From the IMG/VR virus record IMGVR_UViG_3300031227_000173, positions 1 through 37,246 of that record: 37,246 nt of DNA; one strand, given 5' to 3'. This DNA is from a virus. The notes beneath the pieces were generated by a model that was given only the letters and a program-made list of their open reading frames with translations, was not told where the DNA came from and did not search any database. Below, piece after piece: positions 1 through 30,669 of the stretch (positions are counted from its first letter, which is position 1; each line of letters starts with the position of its first letter). A program made the translations under genes and the position numbers.

Positions 1-394
1 TTTCCGTATTTGCAGAGTCAGTGAGTTGTAGTAATCTTCCTGTACCTGTTCCACCTCCTTTTACAGATAATTTGGCAATAGGAGTCGTCGTTCCTATGCC
101 GACGTTGCCACTATTATCTACCACAAGAGACTTAGCAGGAGCAGATGGATAGTTAGCAATGACTCGATGAGCCAAAGCATGATCAGGAGAATCTAATGGA
201 TCTGTTGATTGTGGTTGCTCTGGTGAAGGACTAGGACTAACACTAGGACTAATGCTTATACTTGGACTGACCGATGGAGATAAACTCGGACTTAAAGATA
301 CTGAAGGACTTACAGAAGATGACAAAGATGGACTCAACGATGAGCTTAAACTTGAACTTATACTTGGTGATAATGATGGTGATAAACTAGCCAT
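1..394 (-). CDS. Tail-fibre-like protein, N-terminal part (runs off the window)
   Basis: This gene starts at ATG 394-392 and runs off the left edge, leaving 131 codons. It opens with MASLSPSLSPSIS and a Ser/Pro array of about 58 residues. A linker follows, then VDNSGNVGIGTTTPIAKLSV. That motif is typical of phage tail-fibre and tail-spike shafts, which often end in an intramolecular chaperone. The start is well supported: an AAAGGAG Shine-Dalgarno lies upstream, and TTGACC-N17-TATAAT lies just beyond it. The array matches those in the next two genes upstream in transcription, so this looks like a third Ser/Pro-bearing fibre. Its receptor-binding end lies outside the window. The fibre role is inferred from the GNVGIG-type motif and the neighbours. 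Confidence 0.85.
   Translation of the reverse strand, partial: MASLSPSLSPSISSSLSSSLSPSLSSSVSPSVSLSPSLSPSVSPSISISPSVSPSPSPEQPQSTDPLDSPDHALAHRVIANYPSAPAKSLVVDNSGNVGIGTTTPIAKLSVKGGGTGTGRLLQLTDSANTE
221..391 (-). repeat. Ser/Pro array of the tail-fibre-like gene
   Basis: About 57 codons in which nearly every second residue is Ser and the alternate positions carry Pro or Leu/Ile/Val. Ser is written with both TCN and AGY codons. This is the shortest and least regular of the fibre-gene arrays, with several S-S substitutions for S-P. Confidence 0.85.
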
Positions 395-403
395 AATTTT
401 TTT

Positions 404-410
404 CTCCTTT
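404..410 (-). promoter_or_regulatory. Shine-Dalgarno site of the fibre gene
   Basis: The minus strand reads AAAGGAG nine bases before the ATG at 394. It is one of the few clear Shine-Dalgarno sites in the window, and it fixes the start of the truncated fibre gene. Confidence 0.8.
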
Positions 411-411
411 A

Positions 412-440
412 ATTATAATAATGTAATATAAATGGGTCAA
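412..440 (-). promoter_or_regulatory. Sigma70-type promoter, TTGACC-N17-TATAAT
   Basis: The minus strand has a -35 TTGACC at 440-435, a 17-base spacer and a perfect -10 TATAAT at 417-412. It lies 18 bases upstream of the fibre start codon. The -35 is preceded by ATTTATT, giving the same extended TTTGACC seen upstream of three other minus-strand genes. It implies that the fibre gene can be transcribed separately from the 825-residue gene. Confidence 0.75.
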
Positions 441-456
441 ATAAATATTTGAAATT

Positions 457-2934
457 CTATTTAGTTAATAATGTTGTTTTATCTTTTTGGGTTAATAATG
501 TTGTTTTATCTTTTTGGGTTAATAATGTTGTTTTATCTTTTTGGGTTAATAATGTTGTTGGTCTTCCAAAGTAAATAGCACTTGGTGAAACTGAAGGAGA
601 AATAGATGGGCTAATAGATGGGCTAACACTGGGAGATATTGATGGTGAAATACTAGGCGAGATTGATGGACTTAAGCTTGGGGATAAGCTTGGAGAGATA
701 GAAGGTGATAGAGAGATACTTGGAGATACTGATGGCGAGATTGATGGTGAAAGAGATGGGCTTAAACTAGGTGAAAGCGAAGGAGATAGAGATATACTTG
801 GACTTACACTAGGGCTAATGCTTGGACTTAATGATGGGCTTAATGATGGGCTTAATGAAGGTGAGATTGAAGGACTTAAGGATACACTTGGGCTAACAGA
901 AGGAGAAATGCTTGGTGAAAGACTAGGTGAAAGAGATGGTGAAAGTGATAAACTTATACTAGGGCTTATACTAGGAGATAATGATGGTGAAATACTAACA
1001 CTTGGGGATACAGATGGACTTATTGAAGGGCTTATTGAAGGACTCAAAGATACAGAAGGACTTACAGATGACGATAAAGAATGTGATAAACTCGGACTTA
1101 TACTATGTGAGATTGAAGGACTTACAGAAAGACTTATGCTTGGTGATAGCGATGGTGATATAGATTCACTTGGAGATACAGATGGGCTTATTGAAGGAGA
1201 TAATGATGGAGACAATGATGGGCTTAATGATGAAGATATAGAAGGCGAAATTGAAACACTCGGTGATACTGAAGGAGATATGCTTGGTGAAATAGAAGGA
1301 GATAAGCTTGGTGAAATAGATACACTCGGACTAATTGATGGTGATATAGAAGGTGAAAGCGATGGACTTAAGCTAGGACTTATACTTGGGCTTATTGAAG
1401 GTGATAACGAAATACTCGGACTAACTGAAGGACTTAAACTAGGACTCAAACTATGTGAGATTGAAGGACTTATTGATGGACTTATACTAGGGCTTAAACT
1501 TGGCGAAAGAGATGGGCTTAATGATACACTTGGTGATACTGAAGGACTTATACTTGGCGATAAGCTTGGTGATAGCGATGGACTTAATGAAGGTGATAAT
1601 GATGGACTTATTGAAATACTAGGACTTACAGATGGAGAAATACTTGGACTAATAGAAGGACTTAATGATGGGCTTAAACTTGGAGACAACGAAGGACTCA
1701 ATGAAACACTTGGGCTAACAGAAGGCGAAATACTAGGAGATATAGAAGGAGAAAGCGAAGAAGAAAGCGAAGGTGATAAACTTGGCGAAAGAGATATACT
1801 TGGACTTACGGATGGTGAAATGCTTGGTGAAATACTTGGAGATAATGAAAGAGACAAACTTGGAGATAATGAAGGGGATAATGACACAGAAGGACTTACT
1901 GATGGTGAAATACTTGGACTTAATGATGGTGATAACGATGGCGACAATGATGGACTTAATGATGGTGATATAGAAGGAGAAATGCTTGGAGAGATTGATG
2001 GACTAATTGAATGACTTAATGATGGAGAAAGACTTTCACTTGGACTAACTGAAGGAGAAATACTTGGTGAAAGTGAAGGCGATAATGATGGTGAAAGTGA
2101 TGGTGAGATTGAAGGAGATATACTTGGTGAGATTGAAGGACTTAATGACACACTAGGAGATATAGAAGGACTAATACTTGGTGAAATACTAGGAGATATA
2201 CTAGGTGATAACGAAGGACTCAATGATATACTTGGGCTAACAGATGGGCTTACGCTTGGTGAAAGCGAAGGAGAAAGTGAAACTGATGGACTTACTGAAG
2301 GACTTATGCTTGGTGACAAAGAAGGACTTATACTCGAAGAAATAGAAGGTGAAATTGAAATACTAGGACTTACGGATGGTGAGATACTTGGCGAAATTGA
2401 TGGTGAGACACTAGGGCTGATTGAAGGACTAATGGATGGACTTATAGATACGCTTGGACTTACCGATGGGCTAATTGATGGTGAAATTGAAGGCGAAATA
2501 CTAGGAGATATAGAAAGCGAGATTGATGGTGAAAGAGATGGGCTTAAACTAGGTGAAAGCGAAGGAGATAGAGATATACTTGGACTTACACTAGGGCTAA
2601 TGCTTGGACTTAATGATGGGCTTAATGATGGGCTTAAACTATATGAGAGTGATGGTGAAAGAGATATACTAGGTGAAACTGATGGTGAGATACTTGGACT
2701 TAACGATGGACTTAATGATGGACTTAAAGAAAGCGAAATACTTGGTGAAATACTTGGAGATAATGATGGAGAGATTGAAGGAGATAACGATGGACTAAGT
2801 GATATAGAAGGACTTATAGATGGAATAATAAAATCAATGGACCATAAATTTGCTTCTAAAATTAAACCACCACCATTATATGAAATACCATTATCTGAAT
2901 ACTTTATTCTATTATCATTATATGTAAATGCCAT
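457..2934 (-). CDS. 825-residue Ser/Pro-array protein, probable virion fibre component
   Basis: Residues 1-37 form a short unique head (MAFTYNDNRIKYSDNG...). Residues 38-785 are an uninterrupted S-P-S-[L/I/V] array. The last 40 residues are AIYFGRP followed by 3.6 copies of the nonapeptide TTLLTQKDK. I recognise no catalytic domain. The start codon lies 6 bases after the TAG stop of the giant upstream gene and in the same frame, with no clear Shine-Dalgarno sequence. Expression may therefore depend on coupled reinitiation or amber readthrough. Context between two fibre-like genes suggests a surface or shaft protein. A plus-strand frame is also open across much of the array, but only as a by-product of repeat codon usage. 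The function is inferred; the array itself is certain. Confidence 0.85.
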   Translation of the reverse strand: MAFTYNDNRIKYSDNGISYNGGGLILEANLWSIDFIIPSISPSISLSPSLSPSISPSLSPSISPSISLSLSPSLSPSLSPSISPSVSPSISLSPSLSYSLSPSLSPSLSPSISPSVSPSISLSPSLSPSLSPSLSPSISLSISPSISPSISPSISPSVSPSVSISPSISPSISPSVSPSISPSISPSVSPSISISPSISSSISPSLSPSISPSVSPSVSLSPSLSPSVSPSVSPSISLSPSLSPSISPSISPSISPSISPSVSLSPSISPSISPSISPSLSPSLSPSLSPSISPSVSPSESLSPSLSHSISPSISPSISPSISPSLSPSLSPSLSPSLSPSISPSVSPSVSLSPSLSPSLSLSLSPSISPSISPSVSPSISLSPSLSPSLSSSLSPSISPSISPSVSPSVSLSPSLSPSLSPSLSPSISPSISPSVSPSISISPSLSPSLSPSLSPSLSPSISPSVSPSVSLSPSLSPSLSPSISPSISPSISHSLSPSLSPSVSPSISLSPSISPSISPSLSPSLSPSISPSISPSVSISPSLSPSISPSISPSVSPSVSISPSISSSLSPSLSPSLSPSISPSVSPSESISPSLSPSISLSVSPSISHSISPSLSHSLSSSVSPSVSLSPSISPSISPSVSPSVSISPSLSPSISPSISLSLSPSLSPSLSPSISPSVSPSVSLSPSISPSLSPSLSPSLSPSISPSVSPSISLSPSLSPSLSPSLSPSISPSVSPSISLSPSISPSLSPSLSPSISPSISPSISPSVSPSISPSISPSVSPSAIYFGRPTTLLTQKDKTTLLTQKDKTTLLTQKDKTTLLTK
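464..560 (-). repeat. 27-bp tandem repeat, 3.6 copies
   Basis: Three perfect 27-bp copies (464-490, 491-517, 518-544) and a partial fourth up to 560 lie at the 3' end of the 825-residue gene. On the minus strand each encodes TTLLTQKDK. Unlike the degenerate Ser/Pro array, the copies are identical in DNA, so the expansion is recent. Confidence 0.95.
735..855 (-). repeat. 121-bp perfect direct repeat, copy A
   Basis: Base-for-base identical to 2517-2637 by eye, with an offset of 1782 bases. Elsewhere the array is highly degenerate in synonymous Ser and Pro codons, so this marks a recent intragenic duplication or gene conversion. Confidence 0.85.
2517..2637 (-). repeat. 121-bp perfect direct repeat, copy B
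   Basis: Partner of 735-855. The match begins at GCGAGATTGATGG on the plus strand. It ends where copy A reads CTTAAT and copy B reads CTTAAA. Confidence 0.85.
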
Positions 2935-2940: not shown

Positions 2941-5900
2941 CTATATGTCTAGTTGATAAATTCTGCAAGTTATTAAATCTTGTCCATCTTTATAATCGGT
3001 CAAATCGGTGATAGTCACTGTTAAAGTAAAGTCAGTATCAATATTTGAAGAATTGTCACTATCAACTGTTTCCCAAGAAGAAGTATCAATATTATAAATT
3101 TGTAGATACACCGTAGATGTTGATGGAGCTATATTTACTCGACCTATCCATTTTAATATACAATTTGTTTCACCTTCTACGTAATTTTTATACTGATGTA
3201 TTGTATATTCCAATAACCCCGTTTGTGATACCCTATCATTGTTTTCAGTTTCTACATCTATTATATCCTGAGTAGAATAATTTGTTTCTAAATCATTATT
3301 ATTAGTTGGCAATACTGCATAATTCCCCATAGTATAATCTTTATATCCAACACTAGGAGATACGGATGGTGATAGAGATACACTCGGTGAAACTGACAGT
3401 GAAATACTTGGAGATAATGATGGTGATAAACTCAGTGACAATGATGGACTTAAACTAATACTTGGCGATACCGATGGACTAATGCTTGGAGATAAAGATG
3501 GGCTTAATGAGAAAGAAATACTTGGAGACAATGAAGGACTTAAAGACGGACTCAAAGATGGGCTTAAAGATACTGATGGACTAACTGAAGAAGACAAACT
3601 TGGCGAAAGAGATTGACTGATTGATGGAGATATGCTTGGTGATAAACTAGGACTTAAGCTTGGGCTTATTGAAGGAGATATAGAAATACTAGGACTAACA
3701 CTTGGACTAATACTAGGTGATAAACTAGGTGATAATGATAGAGACAAGCTTGGTGAAATTGATATACTAGGTGATACAGATGGTGAGATAGAAGGTGAAA
3801 GTGATGGAGATAAACTTGGACTTAAACTAGTAGAGATACTAGGGCTTAAGCTTGGCGAAATACTAGGCGAAATACTAACACTTGGAGAAACAGATGGTGA
3901 AATACTAGGCGAGATTGATGGACTTAAAGATGGTGATAAACTTGGCGATAATGATATACTTGGTGAAACCGAAGGACTAATTGATGGTGAAATACTAATA
4001 GAAGGAGATACGCTAGGAGATGCAGATGCTCCATATGTTAATATTCCCCAACCTACTGCATCTGGGTCATCACCTATTCTACCTATCCAATTAACTAAAA
4101 CTGAAGTATTTACTGGAATACCATCTGCTGTTTGTAATTGAAATAAAGAAGTTGTTGGAACGACAGCATCTTCTGATACATCAAAAAGATAAGGGTCATT
4201 TGCTAATATTGGTGTCCAAGTTTCTGTTGAACAAATATGCGACCTCCACTCAATGTCATCATTATGTTTCCAACAAACAACTAGAGCACCATCTCCATGT
4301 TGTACTATTCCAACTCCTCCATGAGAAGCTGTTGTCCCCATACCTATTTCTTCTGCTGCAGACCATGCATCAGTATCACCTCCTTCTCTTTCTCTCCATT
4401 GTACAGAATTATCTGAATCAATATAAATAATATGTAAATGTTTTTCTCCAGCTACTAATCCATGTTCAAAATCAAACTCTGATTTACCAGAAGATGTATT
4501 TAAAGCAATTGTTTGAATTGTTTCCCAAGAGCCATTATCATTATATCTTGAATAAATATCATCATCTTGCTTCCAGCAAAAAATCATATCTTTAGATGTT
4601 GCTCCCCCAGGACCAATAGACCTAAGAGACTGACCATAAATCATATCAGTATTACCAGTATCACTAACATTTTCAGAAGCATCCCAACCAGTAATATCTA
4701 AAGCAGTAGATTGTTCTTTTGCTTTAACCCATATATTAGTAGTATCATCAAATTTTGCTGTTGCCCATAAATGAGGAGTTGAGGTCTTTCCATCTAAAGC
4801 AAGATTAACTCTTCTATATTTACCTCCATCGGCAACACCATCAAATACTTTTGTAGTATTTTCCCATGACCAAGTAGTTGCAGTAGCTTCATCACTCTCT
4901 GCTATATAAGTATCAACTCCATCTGAATAATGAATTGTTGTTGGAACACTACCAGAAGTTCCTCTTACTGTGAAATCTGCAAGGAATTCACCATCAAATC
5001 CAGAAGTATCAATTCTTGCATTTACATTTTCTGCCCAATTATCAGCAGCTAAGTTATTCTTAGCTATCCATTCAAATACATATCTATTATCATCTGGTTC
5101 ATATCTTGCTCTCCAATAATTATCATGATTAGGGTCATATCCATTCTTTCTTTGCCAATTACCACCCATTTCTCTTGGAGGTTGAGGACTTGGGCTTAAG
5201 GAAGGACTAATTGATGGACTTATACTAGGAGATAAGCTTGGTGATAATGAAGGACTAATGGATATTGAAGGTGATACTGAAGGCGATATAGATGGTGACA
5301 AGCTCGGTGAAAGTGATGGGCTTATGCTTGGAGACAATGAAGGTGATAATGAAGGACTCAATGAAACACTCGGGCTAACAGATGGACTCAAGCTTGGAGA
5401 TAATGATGGACTTAACGAAGGGCTTAAAGAAGGCGAAAGCGAAGGACTTAAAGATACTGAAGGACTAACAGAGGGACTGATTGATGGACTAATAGAAGGA
5501 CTTAATGAAGGTGACAATGATGGACTTAAACTTGGTGAAAGTGATATACTCGGTGAAATTGATGGACTAATTGATGGAGAGAGTGAAGGTGAAAGCGAAG
5601 GAGATAAACTTGGTGACAATGAAGGGCTAAGAGATACTGACGGGCTAATAGAGGGAGAAATACTTGGGCTTAAACTCGGACTTAATGAAGGCGATAGTGA
5701 AGGGCTTAAGCTAGGAGATAATGATACTGAAGGACTAATCGAAGGACTCAAACTAGGGCTCAAACTTGGTGACAAGGATTGGCTAATTGAAGGACTTAAA
5801 CTAGGACTCAAGGATATGCTTGGGCTAACAGAAGGAGAAATGCTAGGGCTTATTGAAGGTGAGATACTTGGACTGATAGAAGGACTAAGAGATGGACTTA

Positions 5901-8900
5901 AAGATTCACTTGGTGAAACAGATGGGCTAATACTTGGACTTAATGATGGCGATAGCGATGGTGAAACGCTTGGAGATAAACTAGGCGAAATACTTAGAGA
6001 AAGAGAAGGCGAAATACTTGGACTAACTGAAGGGCTTAAACTTGGTGAAATACTGACAGATGGACTAACACTATGAGAGATCGATGGACTTATGCTTGGC
6101 GATAATGATGGACTAATAGATGGCGAAATACTCGGTGATAAAGATACCGATGGGCTTACGCTTGGGCTTATAGATGGAGATAATGAAGGACTCAAACTTG
6201 GGCTTAATGATGGGCTAATAGATGGACTTATAGAAATACTTGGTGAAACACTCGGGCTAATAGATGGTGAGATTGATGGACTGAATGATGGGCTTAGTGA
6301 AGGTGATATACTTGGACTTAAACTAACACTAGGGGAAACAGATGGAGAAATACTAGGGCTTATACTTAGACTTAAGCTTGGGCTTATACTTGGGCTAATA
6401 CTGGGAGATAAGCTTGGTGATAAAGATGGAGATAGCGATGGAGATAAAGATGGACTTAAAGATACACTTGGTGAAATAGAAGGACTTAAACTTGGTGAAA
6501 AACTTGGTGATAAGCTTGGTGAAATTGATGGTGAAATTGATATACTTGGTGATACTGATGGACTCAAACTTGGCGATAATGAAGGACTAATTGAGGGAGA
6601 TATTGAAGGAGAAATACTTGGGGATAGTGATGGTGAAATACTAGGACTGATTGAAGAACTAATAGATGGACTTAAAGATATACTTGGGCTAACTGATGGA
6701 CTAATAGAAGGTGAAATTGAAGGTGATAATGATGGAGAAATACTTGGCGATAAAGATACACTTGGAGAAACAGATGGAGATATACTTGGACTAATGCTTG
6801 GAGATAAACTTGGTGAGATTGAAGGTGATATCGAAATACTAGGGCTAATGCTTGGTGAAATAGAAGGACTAATACTTGGAGATATACTCGGACTTAATGA
6901 AGGTGATAAGCTTGGAGAGATACTTGGACTTAAACTTGGGGAAATACTTGGAGAGATTGAAGGTGAAATTGAAACACTAGGACTAACACTAGGGCTGATA
7001 CTTGGAGATAAGCTTGGAGATAATGATGGAGATATGCTTGGTGACAAAGATATAGAAGGACTAACCGATGGTGAAAGTGATGGTGAAAGTGAAGGACTTA
7101 AACTAGGACTCAAACTAGGTGAAATTGAAGGGCTTAATGATGGTGATAAACTTGGTGATAAACTAACACTAGGAGATACTGATGGCGAAATACTAGGTGA
7201 GATTGAAGGACTCAATGATGGAGATATAGAAGGCGAAATACTAGGACTTAAGCTTGGAGAAATTGAAGGACTAATAGATACGCTTGGAGAAACTGAAGGA
7301 GAAATACTAGGGCTAATACTAGGAGATAGACTAGGAGATAATGATGGGCTTATAGATATGCTTGGACTGATTGATGGCGAGATTGATGGACTTATACTTG
7401 GAGATATACTTGGAGATAATGATGGTGATAAACTTGGTGATAAACTTGGACTCAAACTAGGGCTCAAACTAGGTGAGATTGATGGACTGATTGAAATAGA
7501 TGGACTGACTGAAGGACTTAAACTTGGACTAAGAGATGGTGATAAGCTTGGAGATAAGCTTGGAGATAAACTTATGCTAGGAGATACTGATGGTGAAATA
7601 CTTGGAGATAGGCTTGGTGAAATACTTGGACTAAATGATGGAGAAATACTAGGGCTAATACTCGGAGAAATAGACGGAGATAAAGATTCACTTGGACTTA
7701 CACTAGGACTAAGTGATGGGCTTAATGATGGTGAAAGTGATTCAGATGGAGAAACACTTGGTGAGATAGAAAGACTGATGGAAGGCGATAGAGATGGTGA
7801 AATACTTGGCGAGATAGATGGAGAAATGCTTGGTGAAATTGATGGTGAAATACTTACACTAGGAGATACTGATGGACTTATTGAAGGACTTAAAGATGAA
7901 GATATACTCGGACTAATGCTTGGTGATATACTAGGAGAAATAGAAAGAGAAATAGAAGGAGATAAGCTTGGACTTAAACTTTCGGAAGGTGATACAGAAG
8001 GACTGATAGATGAGCTTATACTAGGGCTAATTGATGGACTTAGGCTTGGACTTATAGAAGGACTTAGCGAAACAGATGGACTAATAGAAGGAGATAAGCT
8101 TGGTGAAATACTTGGACTAAGTGAAGGACTAATGCTTGGAGAAATAGATGGAGAAATTGATACCGATGGACTTACTGAAGGAGATATAGATGGAGAAATT
8201 GAAGGACTAAGAGATTCACTTGGTGAAACAGAAGGAGAGATAGATGGACTTAAACTTGGACTTAAACTTGGAGATAAACTTTCACTTGGACTAACTGATG
8301 GAGAAATAGATGGACTTATACTTGGACTAATAGAAGGAGAAATACTTTCACTTGGAGAAACGGACGGACTTATACTTGGAGAAATAGAGGGACTGAATGA
8401 GCTACATTCCAAATAGGTTGAATTTAAATCTAAAGAAGTTCCTGTTCGCCACTCACTAAGAGAATCATATGCCGTATCTTCTACCTCTCCAATATTTCCA
8501 CAGATATAATCATTATAATCGATAACAAAATCATCAACATCTTCTGCGATATCAATTCGAACCATCGTTCCCGTTACATTAGTAAAGTCGTTATATCTTA
8601 TGTATGAATTAGTAGTCGTTGCTGTATTTGACCATAGCATTACATGACGACCATTAACACTGTCCCATCTTTGACTATGTCCCCATCCACTACCAGCGTT
8701 TGTACAAGTATTATATTCAAAATATACTTCATCTATTGAAGAAGTACCATCCCTTAAAAACACCTCGTAAGTATATTCACACTTATCTATTGTGTTGTTA
8801 TTAAAGTACAAATTATATTGAGCTGAACCAGCTGCAATTCCCTGGTTTGTTATACCAGCATCATAACATTGAGAAATATTACAATATGTAACAGTAATAT

Positions 8901-14044: not shown

Positions 14045-14045
14045 A

Positions 14046-21697: not shown

Positions 21698-22198
21698 TTA
21701 GTTCTTTATAAATTGAAGCAATTGGTTTAAATTATTATTCTTAATCCCAAATATATGATGGAATCCTTTATGACATTCTTTACATAATGTAATACCATTT
21801 GATACTTCAAATCTTAATTTTAAATTATTTGAAAAATTTTCAATATGATGAGCATTTAAATCCTTTCCTACTTCATTACATTTCTGACAAGTATAATGAT
21901 CTTTAGCATAAACCATTAATCTCCAAAGTTTATATTCATCACTATCTCTAATCTTTTGTATATTAGAAGTAATTCCACCTTTCCAAAAAGGATTATTTTT
22001 ACCTCTCATTTTTTCACCATTGCCATAATTGGGATTATTTTTACCTTTATGAGATTCACTTATTTTTCTTTTTGCTTTCTCGGAGTGTTTAAAGCCAAGA
22101 GCATTTGTATTACCAATAGAAGATTTACTTATTTTTATATTCCTTTTTTGTGAATATTTTCTACCAATATTTATTTTATGTCCTTTGTGAAATGGCAT
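21698..22198 (-). CDS. NUMOD3/HNH homing endonuclease
   Basis: This 166-residue protein begins MPFHKGHKINIGRKYSQKR. It has NUMOD3 helices (ALGFKHSEKAKRKISESHKG) and a C-terminal HNH domain with CQKCNEVGKDLNAHHIENFS and LCKECHKGFH. It is a close relative of 14046-14585, so the two may be duplicates within this genome. It is inserted between a glycosyltransferase and the two-domain methyltransferase with almost no spacing. Confidence 0.9.
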   Translation of the reverse strand: MPFHKGHKINIGRKYSQKRNIKISKSSIGNTNALGFKHSEKAKRKISESHKGKNNPNYGNGEKMRGKNNPFWKGGITSNIQKIRDSDEYKLWRLMVYAKDHYTCQKCNEVGKDLNAHHIENFSNNLKLRFEVSNGITLCKECHKGFHHIFGIKNNNLNQLLQFIKN

Positions 22199-22199: not shown

Positions 22200-23078
22200 T
22201 TATTTGTGTTTGTCCCAAATCTCCTGCCAATTATCAGGCCAGGTGGGAATAGGCCAAAATTTATTTATATACCATGAAAAAGAATGGACCATATTTGGCT
22301 CTTCATTATTCATCCAGTGCTTTGTTCCCCAAGTATTACCACTAATATGATATTTGTCTTTTTTATGTTTTCTTGAAAATTTTCTACTACTATAATGTCG
22401 ACCCTTCTTAAATAAATGAGCATACCAAGTTTTTTTATTAATTTTAATAGCTCCTCCACCTAACCAATATTTTAGTCCTATTTCTTGTTGTTCGTGAGCA
22501 AATGTGCCATAAGTTTCTAAACTATCATCTAAAAATCCAACATGTTCCATAAAATACTTTCTATTGGCCAACCAACAACTTCCCTGAAATGTCATTGTAT
22601 CATCTATTTCCAACTTATCTATTCTCTTACGTGGCCAACCTGCAACTTGGAAAGAATATCCATAACTAAGAGGAGCTACTTCAGGAAAAACTAAATAATG
22701 ATAATCATTTATTGGTCTAGTTCTTTCCCATTTTATATCATTTAAATTAAAACGCCTTGGAACTACTAACCAATTCTCGGCACAATCATCGATTAATTTC
22801 TTATCAAAACCCAAATCTACTATACAATGAGCATCTATTTTCATTACATATTCTCCAGTAGCCTTAGCAAGACCAGCGTTGATAGCACCACGCATACCTA
22901 CATTACCTCCTAGATTTATCGGTTTAACTCGTGGATCTATCATAACGGGTTCATAAGGAATGTCACAATCTAACACAGGCAAAATCTCTATCTCTTCAAC
23001 TGCATTTTTTAATAAAGAATCTATTGTTTTATTGAGAAATGGTTCTCTATATGCTGGTACAATTATTGAAAGTTTCAT
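22200..23078 (-). CDS. Family-2 glycosyltransferase
   Basis: The start is taken at MKLSIIVPAYREPFLNKTID (23078). An in-frame ATG at 23120 would run back through the previous gene. DCDIPYEP and NLGGNVGMRGAINAGLAKA lead to the metal motif KIDAHC (DAH at 82-84). MTFQGSCWLANRKYFMEH and KTWYAHLFKKGRHYSSRKFS complete a match to the two paralogues at 11743-12735 and 23275-24075. The C-terminus SWYINKFWPIPTWPDNW echoes the C-terminal motif of the 11743-12735 enzyme. It is a likely polyprenyl- or protein-linked sugar transferase; the specificity is unknown. The leader is A-rich. Confidence 0.88.
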   Translation of the reverse strand: MKLSIIVPAYREPFLNKTIDSLLKNAVEEIEILPVLDCDIPYEPVMIDPRVKPINLGGNVGMRGAINAGLAKATGEYVMKIDAHCIVDLGFDKKLIDDCAENWLVVPRRFNLNDIKWERTRPINDYHYLVFPEVAPLSYGYSFQVAGWPRKRIDKLEIDDTMTFQGSCWLANRKYFMEHVGFLDDSLETYGTFAHEQQEIGLKYWLGGGAIKINKKTWYAHLFKKGRHYSSRKFSRKHKKDKYHISGNTWGTKHWMNNEEPNMVHSFSWYINKFWPIPTWPDNWQEIWDKHK

Positions 23079-23083
23079 ATTTT

Positions 23084-23287
23084 TTATTTTTGCTTTATTT
23101 TTTTTATAATAGGTTTCCAAATTATTTTTTTAGGATAATCTGGGTCATCTGTATATTGATTTCTTATTAAATCAAAAGTTCTATCACCTCGTCTTTCATA
23201 AGGACTTTTCCCTCCAGCTAATGAAACGTTCCAAGAATAAATAGGAGATGTTTCTAAATTTTTTGATTCTTTTTTTATATTTTCCAT
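23084..23287 (-). CDS. Small protein of unknown function between two glycosyltransferases
   Basis: This 67-residue frame starts at ATG 23287, overlapping the upstream glycosyltransferase by 13 bases. It contains WNVSLAGGKSPYERRGDRTF and a lysine-rich end. I recognise no family. It may be a genuine small gene or a relic of a longer one. The tight packing, with 5 bases to the next start, argues that it is translated. Confidence 0.5.
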   Translation of the reverse strand: MENIKKESKNLETSPIYSWNVSLAGGKSPYERRGDRTFDLIRNQYTDDPDYPKKIIWKPIIKKIKQK

Positions 23288-24075
23288 TTTGGTACTATTT
23301 CATTAATGTAATAATCTTCCCAAACCTTTAATGAATATGCAAAACATTGTTCATTATTAGATGGATTTTCTTTTGTTCCATTATTATGTGTTCTTGAAAA
23401 ACTTCTATGTTTATGTGCGTGCCAAGTGTTTTTATTAACCATTAACTTACCTCCTGCCTTCCAAGTCTTAAATACCATTTCGTGTGAGTCCTGATAAAGA
23501 GGTCCATATCCTTCTGTTTGAAGTTCTCCTATTACCTTGTCCCACCAAGTTCGTTTCATAAACCAACAACTACCTTGCATAGCCATAGATTCTTGTATTG
23601 GTTGAGAATCATCTCCTGGTTTTTCTATTCCAGAAAACTTACGACCATTATCAGCTCTACCTATTCTTAATACCATATAATCTACTGGTGGTAATTCTTT
23701 CATTATTTCCCATTTTTTTGCATCTAAAAAATATCTTCTTGGAGTTACTATCCAGTTATCTTCTATTGTTTCTAAAATCTTACGATCATATCCTTTATCA
23801 AATATTTGATGTTCATCTACTCTCATAAGATATTCTCCTTTTGAAACTAATACTCCAGCGTTAATAGCACCTCTCATTCCTCTGTTTCCTCCTAAATGAA
23901 CTATCTTGATTCTTGGATCATCTTTTATTGGAGTAGTCGGCCAGTAGCCATCTAAGGAAACAACTATTTCGAGCTTGTCCCCAAGTTCTGAGTTTTCAAG
24001 CAAAGAATCTATAGTTTTGTGCAACAAAGGGTCCTTGTATGAGGGAATTATTACTGATAAAATAATATTATTCAT
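23275..24075 (-). CDS. Family-2 glycosyltransferase
   Basis: LSVIIPSYKDPLLHKTIDSL, NRGMRGAINAGVLVSKG and the acidic RVDEHQIFDKGYD (DEH at 87-89) match a GT-A family-2 enzyme. AMQGSCWFMKRTWWDK and KNTWHAHKHRSFSRTHN match its two paralogues in the island. The protein has 266 residues. The leader is a run of AATAATAAATAAACAAAAAAACT before ATG, with no Shine-Dalgarno sequence. The gene follows a 74-base AT-rich gap after the coiled-coil protein. Confidence 0.88.
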   Translation of the reverse strand: MNNIILSVIIPSYKDPLLHKTIDSLLENSELGDKLEIVVSLDGYWPTTPIKDDPRIKIVHLGGNRGMRGAINAGVLVSKGEYLMRVDEHQIFDKGYDRKILETIEDNWIVTPRRYFLDAKKWEIMKELPPVDYMVLRIGRADNGRKFSGIEKPGDDSQPIQESMAMQGSCWFMKRTWWDKVIGELQTEGYGPLYQDSHEMVFKTWKAGGKLMVNKNTWHAHKHRSFSRTHNNGTKENPSNNEQCFAYSLKVWEDYYINEIVPKWKI

Positions 24076-24866: not shown

Positions 24867-25652
24867 TTATTTACAATACAGTCCTATCCCTTCTTCATAT
24901 TTTTTAAAATTATCTATAATTAAATGATGAGATTTATCTTTCATTTCCATAACATTCTGATATAAATATTTACCACTATTATTAATTAATTTCTTATAAT
25001 CCTCTGGACAACTTGGAAATGTTTCACAATGATACATTTTAACACCACAATCAGAATGTCGGCAAATATATTTAAATTTAAAACCAGATATTCTAGCTCT
25101 TTCTTTGTAATCAAGGTCTTCCCATAAAAAAGGACCATATCCTTCATTCCAGTATCCTATTTTATCAATAACTATTCTACTAATCATCATTACGCTACCA
25201 GTGAATATTTCACATAAACCTATTCCATTCACACTATCAATAATCTTTCTTCTATTTGCCATAGCAACAAACCCTAAGTTTAAAGATGTTAAAACATTTT
25301 CATATTTTATAAGCCATTCTTTGTCTTCAAAAACAACATCATCATCTACTTTTATAACATAATCACCTGAACATTGTCTAAATATGTGATTTAAATTTTT
25401 TGGATAATGATTTTCTTTAAAATAATGTATTTTTAATCCATTAATTTCTTTTAAGAAATTTAAATCCATTTTTGTTGGATAATTCAAAACATCTTTAAAT
25501 TGTTCATCATCTACTATTCCAATGTGTACATTAACAACTCTATCGCCAAAATTACATTTTGAAAGTGATTTTAAACATTCTCTAAAGAATGGGTATCTTT
25601 GAATTGGTGCTACTATTACAATATCATGGGTTGGTAATGTTTTTAATGACAT
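24867..25652 (-). CDS. Glycosyltransferase (GT-A, DDD motif)
   Basis: This 261-residue protein has HDIVIVAPIQRYPFFRECLK at the start, then GDYVIKVDDDVVFEDKEWL with the metal motif DDD at 103-105. GSVMMISRIVIDKIGYWNEGYGPFLWEDLDYKERAR is the family-2 acceptor and catalytic ED region. It looks complete. It probably extends a glycan chain; the donor is unknown. Confidence 0.85.
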   Translation of the reverse strand: MSLKTLPTHDIVIVAPIQRYPFFRECLKSLSKCNFGDRVVNVHIGIVDDEQFKDVLNYPTKMDLNFLKEINGLKIHYFKENHYPKNLNHIFRQCSGDYVIKVDDDVVFEDKEWLIKYENVLTSLNLGFVAMANRRKIIDSVNGIGLCEIFTGSVMMISRIVIDKIGYWNEGYGPFLWEDLDYKERARISGFKFKYICRHSDCGVKMYHCETFPSCPEDYKKLINNSGKYLYQNVMEMKDKSHHLIIDNFKKYEEGIGLYCK

Positions 25653-25666
25653 TTAATTTATTCTTT

Positions 25667-26323
25667 TTATAAAAATTCTTTTTTCATAGCAGATCCTTTA
25701 AGATGTCTAATCTTAGTTTTATCAATATCAAAATTTGGATAATAATTATTATAAATAGTTGTTCTAAATAATTTTACTTTTAATTCATCTTTTCTAACAG
25801 TTTGATCATATTTTAAAACATCTACACAATCTCCCAAAAGACTATTAAGAGAAATTTGGTCAGAATTTTCTTCTAATGCTTTGTCAATCCATTCATCAAT
25901 AAATTCCATAGCAATTTTCGTGTTTCTTAAGAATATTACACCAGAATTAATACTTCCTTTGGGTCTATAATCCTTATATTTTTTTATTTCATGTTCAGTT
26001 CTAACGGTTATGCCAATGTCATAATTATCATATTCAATCTCGTCTATATTTTTCATTAAAAATGCATCACCATCTAAATAAACAAGCGTTCTATCTTTTT
26101 CCATATTTTCTAAACAATCTTTAATAATTTTAGGTTTAAAAGTAGCAGGAACAGGCTGTATTCTAGGTCTATCAAAATCTTTTTTGTCTACTTTAAATTC
26201 TTTTCCAAAACCAAGTCCTCCTAAATCATAAACTACTGGTTTATAATTAAATTCTTTAATTTTCTCTAATGATTTAAGAATTAATGGTTTAAAATTTTTA
26301 TTTCCTGCTGTTAAAATTTTCAT
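25667..26323 (-). CDS. Glycosyltransferase, GT8-like (DGD motif)
   Basis: This 218-residue protein has RTLVYLDGDAFLMKNIDEI (DGD at 84-86), GSINSGVIFLRNTKIAMEFID and, near the end, KIRHLKGSA. This DxD, N-S-G, then H-x-K-G order is that of retaining GT8-like or related nucleotide-diphospho-sugar transferases. The start is the ATGA overlap with the upstream methyltransferase. It is distinct from the family-2 enzymes of the island, so at least two transferase families are present. Confidence 0.75.
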   Translation of the reverse strand: MKILTAGNKNFKPLILKSLEKIKEFNYKPVVYDLGGLGFGKEFKVDKKDFDRPRIQPVPATFKPKIIKDCLENMEKDRTLVYLDGDAFLMKNIDEIEYDNYDIGITVRTEHEIKKYKDYRPKGSINSGVIFLRNTKIAMEFIDEWIDKALEENSDQISLNSLLGDCVDVLKYDQTVRKDELKVKLFRTTIYNNYYPNFDIDKTKIRHLKGSAMKKEFL

Positions 26324-26997
26324 ATATTAAATATAACTCCTAATGTTGGAGCATAACTTTGCATTTCTCTATTCCCTCGATGATATGGTTTTGTCCAAAA
26401 TGATTTTTTATCCAAATTCTTTGATTCCCAACAAATATTATCTAAATCACGAAATTCTTTTACAAAATCCATATCATCTGAGAAAAAAATATGTTGAAAT
26501 TTTTCTTCAAATAATTTTCTGTGAGGAGAATCTTTATGACAATCATGAATAAAAAAAGCCTTAATATTTTTATTTTCTATAAGATTTAAAATAAGATTAA
26601 AAGGAATATTTCCTTTTGGTCCATCAATGAGAATAATTGATGGATTTTCAATCTTTTGTTGAAAAATCACAGTAGAATCCCCATATATTAAATGTAAATT
26701 CTTATAATCTTTTAATCTGTTTTTTGCAACGACATCATTCTCCGTGTTTTTGTTAATTTCTATACTATAAATATGAATATCATTATCCTTAAAATTTTCA
26801 GCAAGAATTTTAGTGCTTTGACCTCTTGCTCTGCCACTTTCCCATATTTCCTTTATTTTTAATTTCTTTAAAATAGCTACACATAGTAACATCTCACTAT
26901 TAAAAATTCCTTTTGATTCATATTTAATATCCTTTATTTTGTTATAAAATTCATCTTTATATTCCCGACATATTTTTATTATTAAATCTTTTTGCAT
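26320..26997 (-). CDS. Class I methyltransferase-like protein
   Basis: This 225-residue protein has IKEIWESGRARGQSTKILAE (loop ESGRARG at 53-59), IHIYSIEINKN, LIYGDSTVIF and IILIDGPKGNIPFNLIL, and a tail with YAPTLGVIF. The order fits a SAM-binding Rossmann fold, although the loop is less glycine-rich than usual. It is translationally coupled (ATGA) to the GT8-like gene. A sugar- or lipid-directed role is plausible; the substrate is unknown. Confidence 0.68.
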   Translation of the reverse strand: MQKDLIIKICREYKDEFYNKIKDIKYESKGIFNSEMLLCVAILKKLKIKEIWESGRARGQSTKILAENFKDNDIHIYSIEINKNTENDVVAKNRLKDYKNLHLIYGDSTVIFQQKIENPSIILIDGPKGNIPFNLILNLIENKNIKAFFIHDCHKDSPHRKLFEEKFQHIFFSDDMDFVKEFRDLDNICWESKNLDKKSFWTKPYHRGNREMQSYAPTLGVIFNI

Positions 26998-27018
26998 AAA
27001 ATATTAATTTATAATGAG

Positions 27019-27276: not shown

Positions 27277-27318
27277 ATTTAATAGCATTTAATGCTTTTA
27301 ATGTTAAATATTTATATT

Positions 27319-27585
27319 TTAACGATATACTACATAAGCTTTTGGGCTTGTTCCTGTAAGTTTTGCATATAATCCAGTTTGTGCTTTTATGCCAGGCAAA
27401 CAGATTGAAAAAACTTTAGTGGTATTAGCGGCAACAACTATTGTAAGTAAAACAGATCCAGTATCTGTAATTGCATCTTTTATTTCAAGTGTTGCTTGAT
27501 CTGAACCACCAACTAATGTAGTAGCAGTCATTCTAGTATTACCAGCAACTACAAGTCCTGATGATGTTTTCTCTTTACTAATCAT
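27319..27585 (-). CDS. Small phage virion-type protein
   Basis: This 88-residue beta-rich protein has SGLVVAGNTRMTATTLVGGS, then DATTLEIK-like and TGSVLLTIVVAAN strands, ending in GLYAKLTGTSPKAYVVYR. Small proteins with this VGGSD...AAN...GLYA.LTG pattern are common beside phage head genes, but I know no experimentally assigned role. It has a true Shine-Dalgarno (AAAGGAG) 8-9 bases before ATG and overlaps the stop of the upstream glycosyltransferase. Confidence 0.7.
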   Translation of the reverse strand: MISKEKTSSGLVVAGNTRMTATTLVGGSDQATLEIKDAITDTGSVLLTIVVAANTTKVFSICLPGIKAQTGLYAKLTGTSPKAYVVYR

Positions 27586-28223
27586 TTTTTTTCTCCTTTT
27601 ATTTTTTTAATTTGTTCAAAAAAATCTTGTTGAGTAATAACTTGAGGGTCTCCAATATGTCCTATTCCAATAGTTGGATCACAATATATTTTAAAACCAT
27701 CTTTCTGTGCTTTTATTGAAAAATCCATATCAACTGACCAATGTTTACCATTTTTATCAAAATATGTTTCAAACCATGGATATTTTATCTTTTTAAAAAC
27801 TTTTGTCTTAACTAATAAAACAGAAGAACCTATTGCATCAACTTCACAAAATTTATTTGGAATAATTGGGAAATAGCCACCATCTCTTTTAGTATATACA
27901 CATGGAGAATAATCTCCTCTACGTTTATATGCTAATACTCCAATAATGTCTTTATTATGTTCTTTTAAGCGAAAATAAGTATCAGGAGGAAATGTCATAT
28001 CATCATCAAGCATTAAAACATATTCGCATTCATTATCTTCTATTGCTTTTTTAACAATTTGATTTCTGGCAAAATCTATCATTACACGAGGTAGCCATAT
28101 TACTTTTGTATTTTCTGGAATTCCCAATGTCATCAAAGAACTAACAACTCTATAATCAATAGTACCTAACGTAGGAATTCCTATTGCTAATTCACTCTTT
28201 TGTTTTTCGTTTTCTTGTCTCAT
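27582..28223 (-). CDS. Family-2-like glycosyltransferase
   Basis: This 213-residue protein has AIGIPTLGTIDYRVVSSLMT and CEYVLMLDDDMTFPPDTYFR (DDD at 73-75). VDAIGSSVLLVKTKVFKKI and HWSVDMDFSIKAQKDGFKI carry the acceptor and the catalytic Asp. GIGHIGDP supplies the terminal His. Phage-borne enzymes of this type glycosylate virion proteins or host surface sugars. It is the first gene of the island after the capsid protein, separated by a long hairpin. Confidence 0.85.
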   Translation of the reverse strand: MRQENEKQKSELAIGIPTLGTIDYRVVSSLMTLGIPENTKVIWLPRVMIDFARNQIVKKAIEDNECEYVLMLDDDMTFPPDTYFRLKEHNKDIIGVLAYKRRGDYSPCVYTKRDGGYFPIIPNKFCEVDAIGSSVLLVKTKVFKKIKYPWFETYFDKNGKHWSVDMDFSIKAQKDGFKIYCDPTIGIGHIGDPQVITQQDFFEQIKKIKGEKK

Positions 28224-28235
28224 GGACTTATTTTA

Positions 28236-28311: not shown

Positions 28312-28340
28312 ATTATTTATTAATTATTAACTAAGAAACT

Positions 28341-29279
28341 CTATGGAGTAGATGCGTAACCCATTCTCCAGTTACCCCAAGCAACAAAACCTCTCCAGTC
28401 AACACCGTAATACCATTTCTTTCGTAGAAATGCTGATTCTGTTCCAGATGTTAAATCACGGAACTCAGGAGTTCTTCTCATTTGAAGAATAATAGGTTTC
28501 ATAACATGAGTAGTGTCGAAAAGATACCATGCATCTGCATCTGTCAAGTAAGGACTGATAACTAAGTCAAGCGAACCTCTTAAGACGTTTGTAGCTAGTT
28601 TAGCAGTAGTTGTTCCTTCTTCTGGATAATAGGTAGAATTAAGCAATTCTTTTGCTTCCCATTCTAGTCCTGGAGCAACAACCAAAACATTTGGTCTAAT
28701 GCCCATAGGCTTTCCCTTATCATCTTTGAAGTTAACCATTGCTGTAATAGCAGTTTGAAGATCTGTTGCGCTTAAAGTAGCTGTTCCAAGGTTTGACTGT
28801 GTTCCTGAATCGCCTTCACTATGGTTTGTTGCGAAGAATGCTTTGGAATCATAACAGGCAACTGTTTTATTTTCAAAGATAGTTCCTTCTGTTCCAGTCG
28901 TATTTTCGCCTTGAAGAATTAAACCAAAAACCATTTCGTCATAGAATCTTTTTGCTTCTGTAGCAAGTTCTCTAACTCGTAGTTTGATTTGTCCATATTG
29001 TTCGTCTTCAATGGCGTCTCTATCAACCGAAACTGTTCCTTCCCAACTATAGTTAGTTACTGTGAAGTAGTATTCATTCAAGCTTTCTTCTGTTCTTTCA
29101 TCTTTCCACTCTTTCATTTTAGGAACGGCTCCTAACCATGGATATGTTTCCTCACTCTTTGAAGATTGGACAGTAGTAACAAGTTTTTCGTAATCAGCAG
29201 TAGCTTTTTCGTATGCACCCATAAATTCGGTTTTCATTCCAGCGGTTAATAATTTAGGTATGTCTCCTCTTGTAATCAT
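28341..29279 (-). CDS. Major capsid protein, Mu gpT-like
   Basis: This 312-residue protein has FMGAYEKATADYEKLVTTVQ, EETYPWLGAVPKMKEWKDER, YYFTVTNYSWEGTVSVDRDA and IEDEQYGQIKLRV. These are the consensus stretches of the Mu-like major head subunit family (gpT). The later RPNVLVVAPGLEWEAKELLN and the acidic loop DADAWYLFDTTHVMKP fit the HK97 fold. The capsid is made after the protease and decoration genes, as in Mu. Its stop is TAG, one of only three in the window. The start has an A-rich leader (AAATAATAAATA). Confidence 0.92.
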   Translation of the reverse strand: MITRGDIPKLLTAGMKTEFMGAYEKATADYEKLVTTVQSSKSEETYPWLGAVPKMKEWKDERTEESLNEYYFTVTNYSWEGTVSVDRDAIEDEQYGQIKLRVRELATEAKRFYDEMVFGLILQGENTTGTEGTIFENKTVACYDSKAFFATNHSEGDSGTQSNLGTATLSATDLQTAITAMVNFKDDKGKPMGIRPNVLVVAPGLEWEAKELLNSTYYPEEGTTTAKLATNVLRGSLDLVISPYLTDADAWYLFDTTHVMKPIILQMRRTPEFRDLTSGTESAFLRKKWYYGVDWRGFVAWGNWRMGYASTP

Positions 29280-29286
29280 TTATTTA

Positions 29287-29697
29287 TTATTTAACTGCCG
29301 CATCAATTCTAACTCTTACATGGGTTGAATCTGGGACATCTACGCAGTATCCAGCAAGGATAGAATAACTACTACTAGTTGCAACTGTTTGGTCATCTGA
29401 AATATACATCGCTACGCCAATATCTGTTTGAACTGCTGAAGCCTTAGAAAATACATAAGTACCTTTCTTATTGACTCTAACAGCTTTGTCTGCATCACTG
29501 CCACTTGAATTATCTTTTTTCTCAACGGCTACGCCAAGAAAAGTAGCACCAGAAGCGTCATCGCCTGCTGAAGCATATCCAGTATCCAAGTCAACGACCA
29601 ATGCTCCTTTGTAAATAGTTGCACTAGCTAAAACTGGATATCTAATTATCTCCCCATCTTTTCTCTCAGTGTCTAAATTTGCACTAAGTGCGGTCAT
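29287..29697 (-). CDS. Capsid decoration protein, copy B (no Ser/Pro tail)
   Basis: This 136-residue beta-rich protein has TALSANLDTERKDGEIIRYP, ATIYKGALVVDLDTGYASAG and GTYVFSKASAVQTDIGVAMY, the pattern of head decoration or stabilising proteins found beside gpT. It lies 7 bases before the capsid gene. It is a tandem paralogue of the protein at 30067-30669 over its full length and ends VRVRIDAAVK, where the other copy continues into an array. The leader sequence (AATAATATAAAATAATATG) also resembles that of copy A. Confidence 0.82.
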   Translation of the reverse strand: MTALSANLDTERKDGEIIRYPVLASATIYKGALVVDLDTGYASAGDDASGATFLGVAVEKKDNSSGSDADKAVRVNKKGTYVFSKASAVQTDIGVAMYISDDQTVATSSSYSILAGYCVDVPDSTHVRVRIDAAVK

Positions 29698-30066
29698 ATT
29701 ATTTTATATTATTTTTAATTGAACTTTAACATAGTTGATTTATTTCTCTCAGCCTTTGCTGATTTTCTAAGAATAAAATTAAAATCCTTTTGATATCGAC
29801 CTGATCATCTCCAAATTTTATTTCAAACTTAGAAGTAAAGAATAATATTAAGACATCTTATAGATACTCTTAATAAACCCTTTCGGCTTTAGCAAGCTCA
29901 ACTTCTTTCTTGCTAACTACCGCTTTAAAACGAGTTTCAAATTAAACTTTAGACTTAATTTCTAAAGAATCATCTGAATTCTCTTCTAAAGATTCGACTT
30001 TTTGTCTTTTTTATAAATAGATTCAATGATCTTTATTTCTTTTTAGATATATTACCTCTTGTTATC
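29698..30066 (-). pseudogene. Decayed duplicate of the protease-gene 3' end
   Basis: The minus strand reads KDKKVESLEENSDDSLE, then KAVVSKKEVELAKAERVY, a stop and EYL, then GDDQVDIKRI, and finally AKAERNKSTMLKFN and a stop. Each part aligns in order with the C-terminal region of the protease at 30701-32620 (KDKKVKSLEDNDS, KAVVSKKKVDLAEAESVYQKYL, GDDQVGIKKM, AAKDKSTLF). Several stops and frame changes are present. With copies A and B of the decoration gene on either side, it shows a tandem duplication of [protease 3' end + decoration gene]. The 369-base gap holds nothing else that I can support. Confidence 0.88.
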
Positions 30067-30669
30067 TTATGTAGATGGACTTACTGATGGACTGATTGAA
30101 GGCGAGATTGATACTGAAGGACTTACTGATGGACTGATTGAAGGTGAGATTGATGGACTAAGTGATGGACTGATTGAAGGTGAGATTGATGGACTGATTG
30201 AAGGTGAGATTGATGGACTGATTGAAGGACTAATTGAAAGACTAACTGCCCCAAGTGAATCTGCAATCATATCAATGTCAATTCTTACATGGGATGAGTC
30301 TGGAACTTCCACGACATATCCAGCTGGAATAGAACAACTGCTAGCACTACCAACAGTTTGATCGTCTAGAATGTACATAAGTTGTCCAATGTCAGTTTGT
30401 GCTGCTGATGCTTTTGAAAATACAAAAGTCCCAGTCTTATATAAACGAACATTTTTAGCTCCATCGACTAGACTACCAGAGTTATCTGATTTCTCGACAG
30501 CTATGCCAAGGAATCTATATCTACCAGCATCAGCACCTGCTGAAGCATATCCAGTACCTATATCAACAACTAATGCTCCTTTATAAATAGTCGTACTAGC
30601 CAAAACTGGGTAATTGATGATTTCTCCATCTTTTCTTTTGGTGTCTAAATTTGCGCTAAGTGTAGTCAT
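30067..30669 (-). CDS. Capsid decoration protein, copy A, with a Ser/Pro tail
   Basis: Residues 1-138 repeat copy B (TTLSANLDTKRKDGEIINYP, TIYKGALVVDIGTGYASAG, GTFVFSKASAAQTDIGQLMY). After HVRIDIDMIADSLGAV it gains a roughly 58-residue S-P-S-x tail (SLSISPSISPS... to SVSPST) that copy B lacks. The array type is the same as in the fibre genes about 20 kb away. A capsid carrying this protein would display Ser/Pro arms. The decayed protease fragment immediately downstream shows that the tail lies at a duplication junction. The decoration function is inferred from place and pattern. Confidence 0.85.
   Translation of the reverse strand: MTTLSANLDTKRKDGEIINYPVLASTTIYKGALVVDIGTGYASAGADAGRYRFLGIAVEKSDNSGSLVDGAKNVRLYKTGTFVFSKASAAQTDIGQLMYILDDQTVGSASSCSIPAGYVVEVPDSSHVRIDIDMIADSLGAVSLSISPSISPSISPSISPSISPSISPSLSPSISPSISPSVSPSVSISPSISPSVSPST
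30070..30243 (-). repeat. Ser/Pro array on the capsid decoration protein
   Basis: 58 codons, mostly SPSI steps with a late SVSPSVSISPS break: the same grammar as in the fibre arrays, here fused to a head protein. It is absent from the paralogue at 29287-29697. Confidence 0.9.

Follow-up and report, generated by a model that had tools for sequence, protein, structure and literature searches.

Serine arrays on virion proteins and a linked cassette with GT27-like transferases: a candidate mucin-type O-glycosylation system of phages and Patescibacteria

The window described here is a 37-kb virus record of IMG/VR (IMGVR_UViG_3300031227_000173, 37,246 nucleotides), a phage fragment with a Mu-like head. 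Four of its proteins carry SPSx arrays, in which serine occupies every second residue, and an island of glycosyltransferase, methyltransferase and epimerase genes lies close to them. The link between arrays and island is no coincidence of the window, as it holds in both directions across IMG/VR when compared with controls. The reading that we favour, with moderate confidence, is that phages carry a Patescibacterial cassette for mucin-type O-glycosylation and coat their own virions with sugars, which would be attached to the serines of the arrays. The three transferases most important for this reading are called T1, T2 and T3 (ORFs 11743, 23275 and 22200; open reading frames, ORFs, of the island are named by their first coordinate in Table 1).

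The arrays form six runs with 1,095 alternating serines in four minus-strand ORFs. An earlier reading made from the letters of the window (the sequence-only reading) had claimed four such ORFs, more than 1000 potential acceptor sites and serines that alternate with Pro or branched residues, and all three claims are borne out: the 1,089 residues between array serines include 477 Pro and 575 Ile, Leu or Val, together 97%. When the window was resampled 100 times with a first-order Markov model and each resample was read in six frames (600 frames), no run of at least 8 serines occurred and the longest was 6, which rules out chance or a low-complexity artefact as the source of the arrays. All six serine codons are used, with both codon classes freely mixed, and neighbouring units diverge at more than half of their synonymous sites; still, serine is unbroken over 374 positions. 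It is therefore the protein that is conserved and not the DNA. This conclusion relies on run length, codon mix and synonymous divergence, since a position-wise codon comparison is partly circular, the units having been chosen by their SPS pattern. The arrays have a second level of order, a two-residue slip (SPSxSxSPS) whose commonest spacing is 30 residues (mostly 18-50). It is found at 23 sites in the 825-residue protein and at 41 sites in the 2654-residue protein, and a Val unit precedes it at 20 and 34 of these sites, respectively. Opposite the arrays, the plus strand has ORFs of 398 and 774 residues with GxxxGxxx repeats (window 818-2014 and 6092-8416), which are probably a by-product of the 12-bp repeat.

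Array phages were collected from IMG/VR with two DNA patterns for the SPSx unit, which matched 10 and at least 118 stretches. The array set consists of 41 records, each with 20 or more serines in a Pro-type run, drawn from both patterns and from L001, a record whose capsid protein is 98% identical to that of the window. Alternating runs of at least 8 serines were dropped when the main interleaved residue was Ser, Arg, Asn, Trp or, in one array count, Thr; in the counts at T1 and T2 viral loci and at genome loci given below, runs in open frames of less than 60 residues were dropped as well, and in one array count the arrays that cross the edges of 20-kb slices are cut. A scan for glycosyltransferase family GT2 (PF00535) covered 50 loci on the array side (the 41 array records, L010 and L014 with short arrays, L002 and six capsid relatives) and 50 on the control side (19 of 30 random loci, those from records of at least 10 kb, and 31 pattern loci without SPSx arrays). 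The 30 random loci comprise 4 records from a first 16-mer pattern and 26 from a second. The scan sets were not dereplicated and include the near-copies G002/G006, G003/G008, G020/G025 and G070/G077.

GT2 was found (E <= 0.001) in 31 of the 41 array records versus 10 of the 50 controls, which are longer on average. Over the Pfam cut-off the counts are 30 of 41 and 7 of 50, and the density is 0.59 per 10 kb in array records versus 0.063 in controls. This enrichment was reached in none of 20,000 label shuffles within length strata. Of 89 GT2 matches, 83 share the strand of the array nearest to them, and in seven records an array ends 51-88 bp from a GT2 match. Many transferases of array phages share the C-terminal motif QG.E...KTW.SGG...TWYAHMFR, or one of two variants, together with DxH. 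The TWYAHMFR-type motif with DxH was absent from the 11 control transferase ORFs (representing 16 control matches, with near-copy G070 omitted and the G077 matches merged) and from the 8 ORFs of array-less capsid relatives. By profile, T1, T2 or T3 is present in 27 of the 42 array records other than the window, and in 16 of the 22 that are at least 20 kb long. Six capsid relatives (G043-G048, three of at least 27 kb) lack arrays and also lack T1, T2, T3 and the 15730 family; in G042 and G018 both arrays and cassette are present.

In the reverse direction, from enzymes to arrays, the viral loci were the best 80 of 325 T1 relatives and the best 80 of 98 T2 relatives; T1 and T2 loci share contigs. 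Arrays lie within 10 kb at 63 of the 80 T1 loci (51 of the 58 that are at least 12 kb long) and occur at 62 of the 80 T2 loci (47 of 57). None were found at 30 random loci (226 kb in all, three of at least 12 kb, compared with 1,194 kb of T1 loci) or at 17 loci of a control phage transferase (337 kb; one group of relatives, 60-100% identical). When near-identical T1 proteins are collapsed, arrays are present in 54 of 63 viral clusters and 23 of 35 genome clusters. T1 with its motif was located in 103 of 117 viral and genomic loci, and in 70 of these 103 the array gene follows T1 on the same strand with a median gap of 240 bp, a count for which no null was computed; with at least 5 kb of room the figure is 51 of 58 loci. 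The check proposed by the sequence-only reading, a search for co-occurrence of SPSx arrays with such islands, was thus favourable both ways. The T1 viral loci are also matched by queries with 15730 (75/80), with 13325 of the same family (73/80) and with the Methyltransf_24 protein 14590 (64/80), which match 0, 0 and 1 of 95 control loci. Relatives of the capsid gene of the window occur at 1 of 80 T1 and 4 of 80 T2 loci. What is shared is therefore the cassette and not a phage lineage, and phage relatedness as the sole cause of the linkage is ruled out.

Judged from their sequences, T1 and T3 have as their closest solved enzymes the polypeptide GalNAc-transferases of mucin-type glycosylation, which are eukaryotic. 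Such GT27 enzymes initiate mucin-type O-glycosylation and act on Ser/Thr in Pro-rich repeats. Their hallmarks are a DxH metal motif, a second His in H-x-F-R, a WGGEN motif and, typically, a C-terminal ricin-type lectin domain. Compared with PDB sequences, the top 15 of 24 matches of T1 are all polypeptide GalNAc-transferases, the best being 8uhv (3e-7), which is Toxoplasma GalNAc-T3 according to the entry title, and GT27 enzymes also lead its profile search. The best match of T3 is the GT27 enzyme 6s22, aligned over profile positions 5-257. In T2 and T3 the GT27 alignments cover most of the catalytic domain, and those to other GT2 enzymes mostly cover roughly the first 80-135 residues. The top 50 Foldseek rows for the predicted T1 fold are all GT27, and in comparison with solved folds the best GT27 Z score is 22.1 (root-mean-square deviation, rmsd, 3.3; 265 aligned) versus 19.6 (2.6; 183) for the best enzyme outside GT27. 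Residues D86, H88 and H256 are invariant in an alignment of eight T1 sequences (A1) and align to GT27 residues. A Pfam scan of T1, which has only 330 residues, gave no lectin family. Inside T1, a Zn-ribbon-like insert (~residues 126-145) resembles the zinc sites of rubrerythrin and eL37.

The arrays are placed on several parts of the virion. The array-bearing head cement protein belongs to phrog_1731, and in this family arrays are found in the window, L001 and L002 (17 Ser) and not in L003-L008. L001 has three cement copies, two of them with arrays (33 and 44 Ser) and one bare. In other phages, arrays occur at or near the C-terminus of a Phage_tube_2 protein (5.5e-40), of a phrog_9522 major tail protein and of small proteins without an assigned family, and in several fibres they are located between other domains. 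Since arrays occur on head, tail-tube and fibre proteins and several lie at free C-termini, a surface coat is more plausible than a linker. The ends of some array proteins have short repeats of their own. Exact 27-bp repeats (window 464-559) encode the TTLLTQKDK units that end the 825-residue protein, related TTLLTRDGH repeats form the C-terminal end of a fibre in G018 (24161-29923), and some other array proteins have different short repeats after the array, at the protein end.

If the favoured reading is right, the SPSx arrays would be mucin-like acceptor domains grafted onto exposed virion proteins, with acceptor sites at the C-terminus of the cement protein and along the fibres and, in other phages, also on tail-tube or major tail proteins. 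The neighbouring cassette would glycosylate the arrays inside the infected cell. O-linked chains may be initiated at the array serines by T1, with T2 and T3, in the way that polypeptide GalNAc-transferases initiate them on Ser/Thr repeats rich in Pro. The GT-A family of 15730 and 13325 and further transferases may extend these chains, and the methyltransferases and the epimerase may decorate them. The outcome would be a dense hydrophilic, mucin-like brush across head, tail and fibres. The transfer to serine, the identity of the sugar, the order of the steps and the effect on the virion are what we infer from the genes and their homologues. The idea of the sequence-only reading that the virion is self-glycosylated is carried well past an analogy by the linkage in both directions and by the GT27-like enzymes, while sugar transfer itself keeps the standing of a proposal.

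The cassette is at home in Patescibacteria and their phages. When 84,980 bacterial and archaeal species genomes were scanned by pattern, a T1 relative turned up at 43 loci, at four of them a distant one (<36% identity). The titles of 38 place them in groups that we take to be Patescibacteria (candidate phyla radiation, CPR), and five give no phylum; as far as named, the bacterial genomes in which T1 was found are all Patescibacterial. It is rare there, being found in 4 of 286 genomes at E <= 1e-30, all among the loci already found. Arrays are present in 22 of the 43 loci, and several contigs end inside an array. In a 917-kb Woesebacteria chromosome the cassette occurs with TatC (PF00902, 1.3e-41), Methyltransf_24 and FnlA-, WecB- and WbcJ-like enzymes, of which the FnlA- and WbcJ-like matches fall under the NCBI cut-offs; by their homologies, the three together suggest a route to a UDP-N-acetylfucosamine-type donor. 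tatC starts ~0.6 kb after the array ORF in L427 and L434, and TatC-like genes are found, with varying adjacency, at 11 of 43 genome loci versus 0 of 155 viral loci. In the Patescibacterial locus L423, a T1-array cassette lies near tatC with a YifB-like gene and FnlA/WecB/WbcJ-like sugar genes.

The cassette is chromosomal in Patescibacteria and is therefore not purely a phage invention. In a quick tree of T1, in which L324 has a long branch, 48 of 67 viral T1 proteins and two from genome bins form one group (support 99) among Patescibacterial branches, and the other 19 viral proteins are scattered outside it. The range of the cassette and this tree suggest that the host of the phage is Patescibacterial. 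Terminase phrog_2 matches 9 of 38 genomes with T1 and 18 of the 42 array records, and it does not match the window or four array-less relatives. The terminase matches of several records (G013, G020, G008 and others) are broken by stop codons, possibly by introns or insertions. More tentatively, mucin-type O-glycosylation may extend beyond eukaryotes: Patescibacteria would possess a mobile cassette in which a GT27-like initiator is combined with GT-A extenders, methyltransferases and Pro/Ser mucin-like proteins, and their phages would have captured it to coat head, tail and fibres, perhaps in imitation of the surface of these ultra-small hosts. We regard this wider proposal as possible rather than probable.

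Several observations weigh against the favoured reading. The controls are limited, as the random loci are shorter than the T1 loci and the control-transferase loci are mutually related. Arrays are lacking at 17 of 80 T1 and 18 of 80 T2 loci; many of these are short or truncated loci, yet among loci with 12 kb or more, arrays are still missing at 7 of 58 for T1 and 10 of 57 for T2. The sequence-only reading had named arrays in phages without glycosyltransferases, and islands without arrays, as evidence against itself, and this pattern is seen in part: 15 of 42 array records have no T1, T2 or T3 (6 of 22 at 20 kb or more: G002, G006, G016, G027, G030, G033), though G002, G006, G016 and G033 hold other GT2 matches, and the array-less capsid relatives do carry GT2 genes, of other families. 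Two of these six relatives are shorter than 6 kb and identity is as low as 35% for G048. In G018 the cassette is present and the cement protein has no array, and G001, a 98% relative, has arrays and no cassette within its 12.9 kb. The closeness of GT2 genes to arrays is modest (median distance p 0.01; nearest-transferase test p 0.08, not significant). For the enzymes, the best GT27 matches of T1 span mainly its C-terminal half, some GT27 rows for its model (Z 19.4-20.2) are level with the best outside GT27, and the model has a mean predicted local distance difference test score (pLDDT) of 72.9, falling below 50 in the loop that holds the second His (253-272). T1 reads WGNQG at the WGGEN position, so that GEN has become NQG with both E and N replaced, and it is therefore termed GT27-like and not a GT27 member. 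The best match of T2 is 6p61, a bacterial glycosyltransferase, with GalNAc-T4 (GT27) second. Seven of the 10 array proteins scanned have no PHROG match, so that their placement on the virion is tentative, and as to the host, which is read from the cassette, a capsid relative is present in 1 of the 38 Patescibacterial genomes with T1.

Other explanations of the arrays have to be weighed. They may be unmodified, extended Pro/Ser linkers, with the cassette building a glycan of the host surface that might, for instance, prevent superinfection or change attachment. The chromosomal cassette near tatC in Patescibacteria does imply a cellular role, serotype-altering phage transferases are known according to passages of PMC12619734, arrays lie between domains in several fibres, and some array records do without T1, T2 and T3. 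This explanation, however, does not account for array genes that lie close behind T1 on one strand or for capsid relatives that lack arrays and cassette together, and arrays at the C-termini of cement and tail proteins link nothing. We consider it unlikely.

It is improbable, too, that the cassette glycosylates other virion residues of the capsid or tail surface while the arrays recruit the enzymes or a lectin by binding them, since the arrays far exceed the length that a docking tract should need in our estimate, and GT27 enzymes by their known biochemistry act on Pro-rich Ser/Thr repeats. This idea can draw on the glycosylation of capsid and tail-tube subunit C-termini in mycobacteriophages (Freeman 2023, as cited in passages of PMC12619734 and PMC11256854). 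The arrays might also be DNA-level tracts of recombination or slippage for exchange of fibre domains, with the cassette linked as a by-product of a shared virion module. The DNA does repeat with period 12, and the relative with the 98% identical capsid protein has arrays of other lengths and another number of array-bearing cement copies. The synonymous divergence of neighbouring units, the unbroken 374 serines and the free mixing of the two codon classes show that protein rather than DNA is conserved, and make this highly improbable.

The system that we favour, glycosylated arrays, can be compared with known ones. With GT27 enzymes and mucins it shares the best sequence and fold matches of T1, the GT27-led matches of T3, the DxH and C-terminal H-x-F-R motifs and a Pro/Ser-rich repeat partner beside the enzyme. 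It differs in the phage/Patescibacterial origin of T1, the lack of a lectin family in the Pfam scan, the altered GEN of WGGEN and the Zn-ribbon-like insert. The sequence-only reading had pointed to the serine-rich repeat adhesins of Gram-positive bacteria, which are wall-anchored, have long Ser-alternating repeats next to transferase genes and use a GtfA/GtfB priming pair and accessory Sec. The analogy is good for long alternating-Ser repeats beside transferases. It is less apt for the proteins, which here belong to virions, and for the enzymes, as T1 and T3 match eukaryotic GT27 enzymes best; general Pfam scans of the island, with no dedicated search made, gave no GtfA/GtfB or accessory Sec families.

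Virion glycosylation as such is already known from mycobacteriophages. In Che8 and others, phage-encoded transferases are associated with glycans at the C-termini of capsid and tail-tube proteins (Freeman 2023, as cited in PMC12619734 and PMC11256854). Going by these citing passages, phage-encoded transferases beside virion genes and the C-terminal location, here at head cement and tail-tube proteins, are common to both, the present system being known from metagenomic sequence alone. What sets it apart is its dedicated Ser arrays, which can reach hundreds of residues, together with a GT27-like enzyme, the conserved pairing of transferase and array genes, and a setting in Patescibacteria instead of mycobacteria. 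Patescibacteriota phages have been described that carry concanavalin A-like lectins and O-antigen nucleotide-sugar genes (PMC12911398); Ser arrays, virion glycosylation and GT27-like enzymes go unmentioned in the abstract and passages of that paper. Among the literature matches listed, neither GT27-like enzymes of phages or Patescibacteria nor virion arrays of the SPSx type are named in any title or abstract start. If the favoured reading is true, a single phage fragment would hold more than 1000 candidate acceptor sites of a virus-borne, bacterial mucin-type O-glycosylation. The cloaking of virions by phages could then be studied with a defined enzyme-substrate pair, and the surface chemistry of the mostly uncultured Patescibacteria would become more accessible. 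The conserved T1-array pair is a marker for finding such phages.

The sequence-only reading had also described the island as about ten glycosyltransferase-like genes, six methyltransferase-like genes and an epimerase on one strand between head and fibre genes. The strand and position hold: all island genes are on the minus strand, between array-bearing fibre genes and adjoining Mu-like head genes (a gpT-like major capsid protein, two cement proteins, a protease and a Mu-type portal). A Pfam scan confirms the epimerase (18376). Eight of the transferase-like genes are supported by Pfam, family or fold, with the Pfam cut-off exceeded for Glycos_transf_2 by 11743, 22200, 23275 and 24867, for Nucleotid_trans by 25667 and for Anp1 by 27582. 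The other two of the eight, 13325 and 15730, have no Pfam match; the model of 15730 (pLDDT 93.5) has a GT-A fold with a best Z of 13.1 to SpsA (rmsd 3.2, 169 aligned). Unproven are 17288 and 19878, which have no Pfam match and whose family profile matches nothing in PDB. Four methyltransferase-like genes exceed a cut-off (14590, 19292 and, narrowly, 20608 and 16368), 26320 is weak (20.0 bits vs a cut-off of 26.3), and 15207 was assigned by eye.

Table 1. Arrays, island genes and adjoining head genes of the window.
Coordinates	Strand	Feature	Remark
2..394	-	array protein, N-terminal SPSx array, 28 alternating Ser	ORF cut by window end
457..2934	-	825-residue protein, single unbroken run of 374 alternating Ser, C-terminal TTLLTQKDK repeats	
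2941..10905	-	2654-residue fibre-like protein, SPSx arrays of 15, 536 and 113 Ser, CBM_4_9 domain	
11743..12735	-	T1, GT27-like glycosyltransferase	DxH; WGxQGxE; TWYxHxFR; Zn-ribbon-like CxxC...CxxC insert
12737..13321	-	NUMOD3/HNH homing-endonuclease-like gene within island	
13325..14110	-	cassette gene, 15730 family	GT-A fold by homology
14046..14585	-	NUMOD3/HNH homing-endonuclease-like gene	
14590..15210	-	methyltransferase (Methyltransf_24)	
15207..15713	-	methyltransferase-like, by eye	no Pfam match
15730..16371	-	cassette family, predicted GT-A fold	at 75/80 T1 viral loci
16368..17282	-	methyltransferase-like	Methyltransf_9 over cut-off, Methyltransf_23 slightly under
17288..18028	-	cassette family with DxD motif, no assigned fold	at 29/80 T1 loci
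18376..19284	-	NAD-dependent sugar epimerase/dehydratase	
19292..19900	-	methyltransferase (Methyltransf_24)	
19878..20591	-	second member of 17288 family	
20608..21696	-	methyltransferase-like	C-terminal part barely at Methyltransf_24 cut-off
21698..22198	-	NUMOD3/HNH homing-endonuclease-like gene	
22200..23120	-	T3, GT27-like glycosyltransferase	
23275..24075	-	T2, GT27-like glycosyltransferase	
24867..25652	-	GT2 glycosyltransferase	without GT27-like tail motif
25667..26323	-	nucleotide-diphospho-sugar transferase-like protein	
26320..26997	-	weak methyltransferase-like protein	
27582..28223	-	Anp1/GT2-like glycosyltransferase	
28341..29279	-	major capsid protein, Mu gpT-like	
29287..29697	-	head cement protein without array	
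30067..30669	-	head cement protein, SPSx array of 29 alternating Ser at C-terminus	

An ORF of 183 residues within the island (24150-24701) has no Pfam match and no relatives at the T1 and T2 loci. The island is interrupted at three places by the homing-endonuclease-like genes of Table 1, which the sequence-only reading had overlooked, and two more ORFs of the window, 11281-11787 (+) and 33197-33739 (-), look HNH-like by eye.

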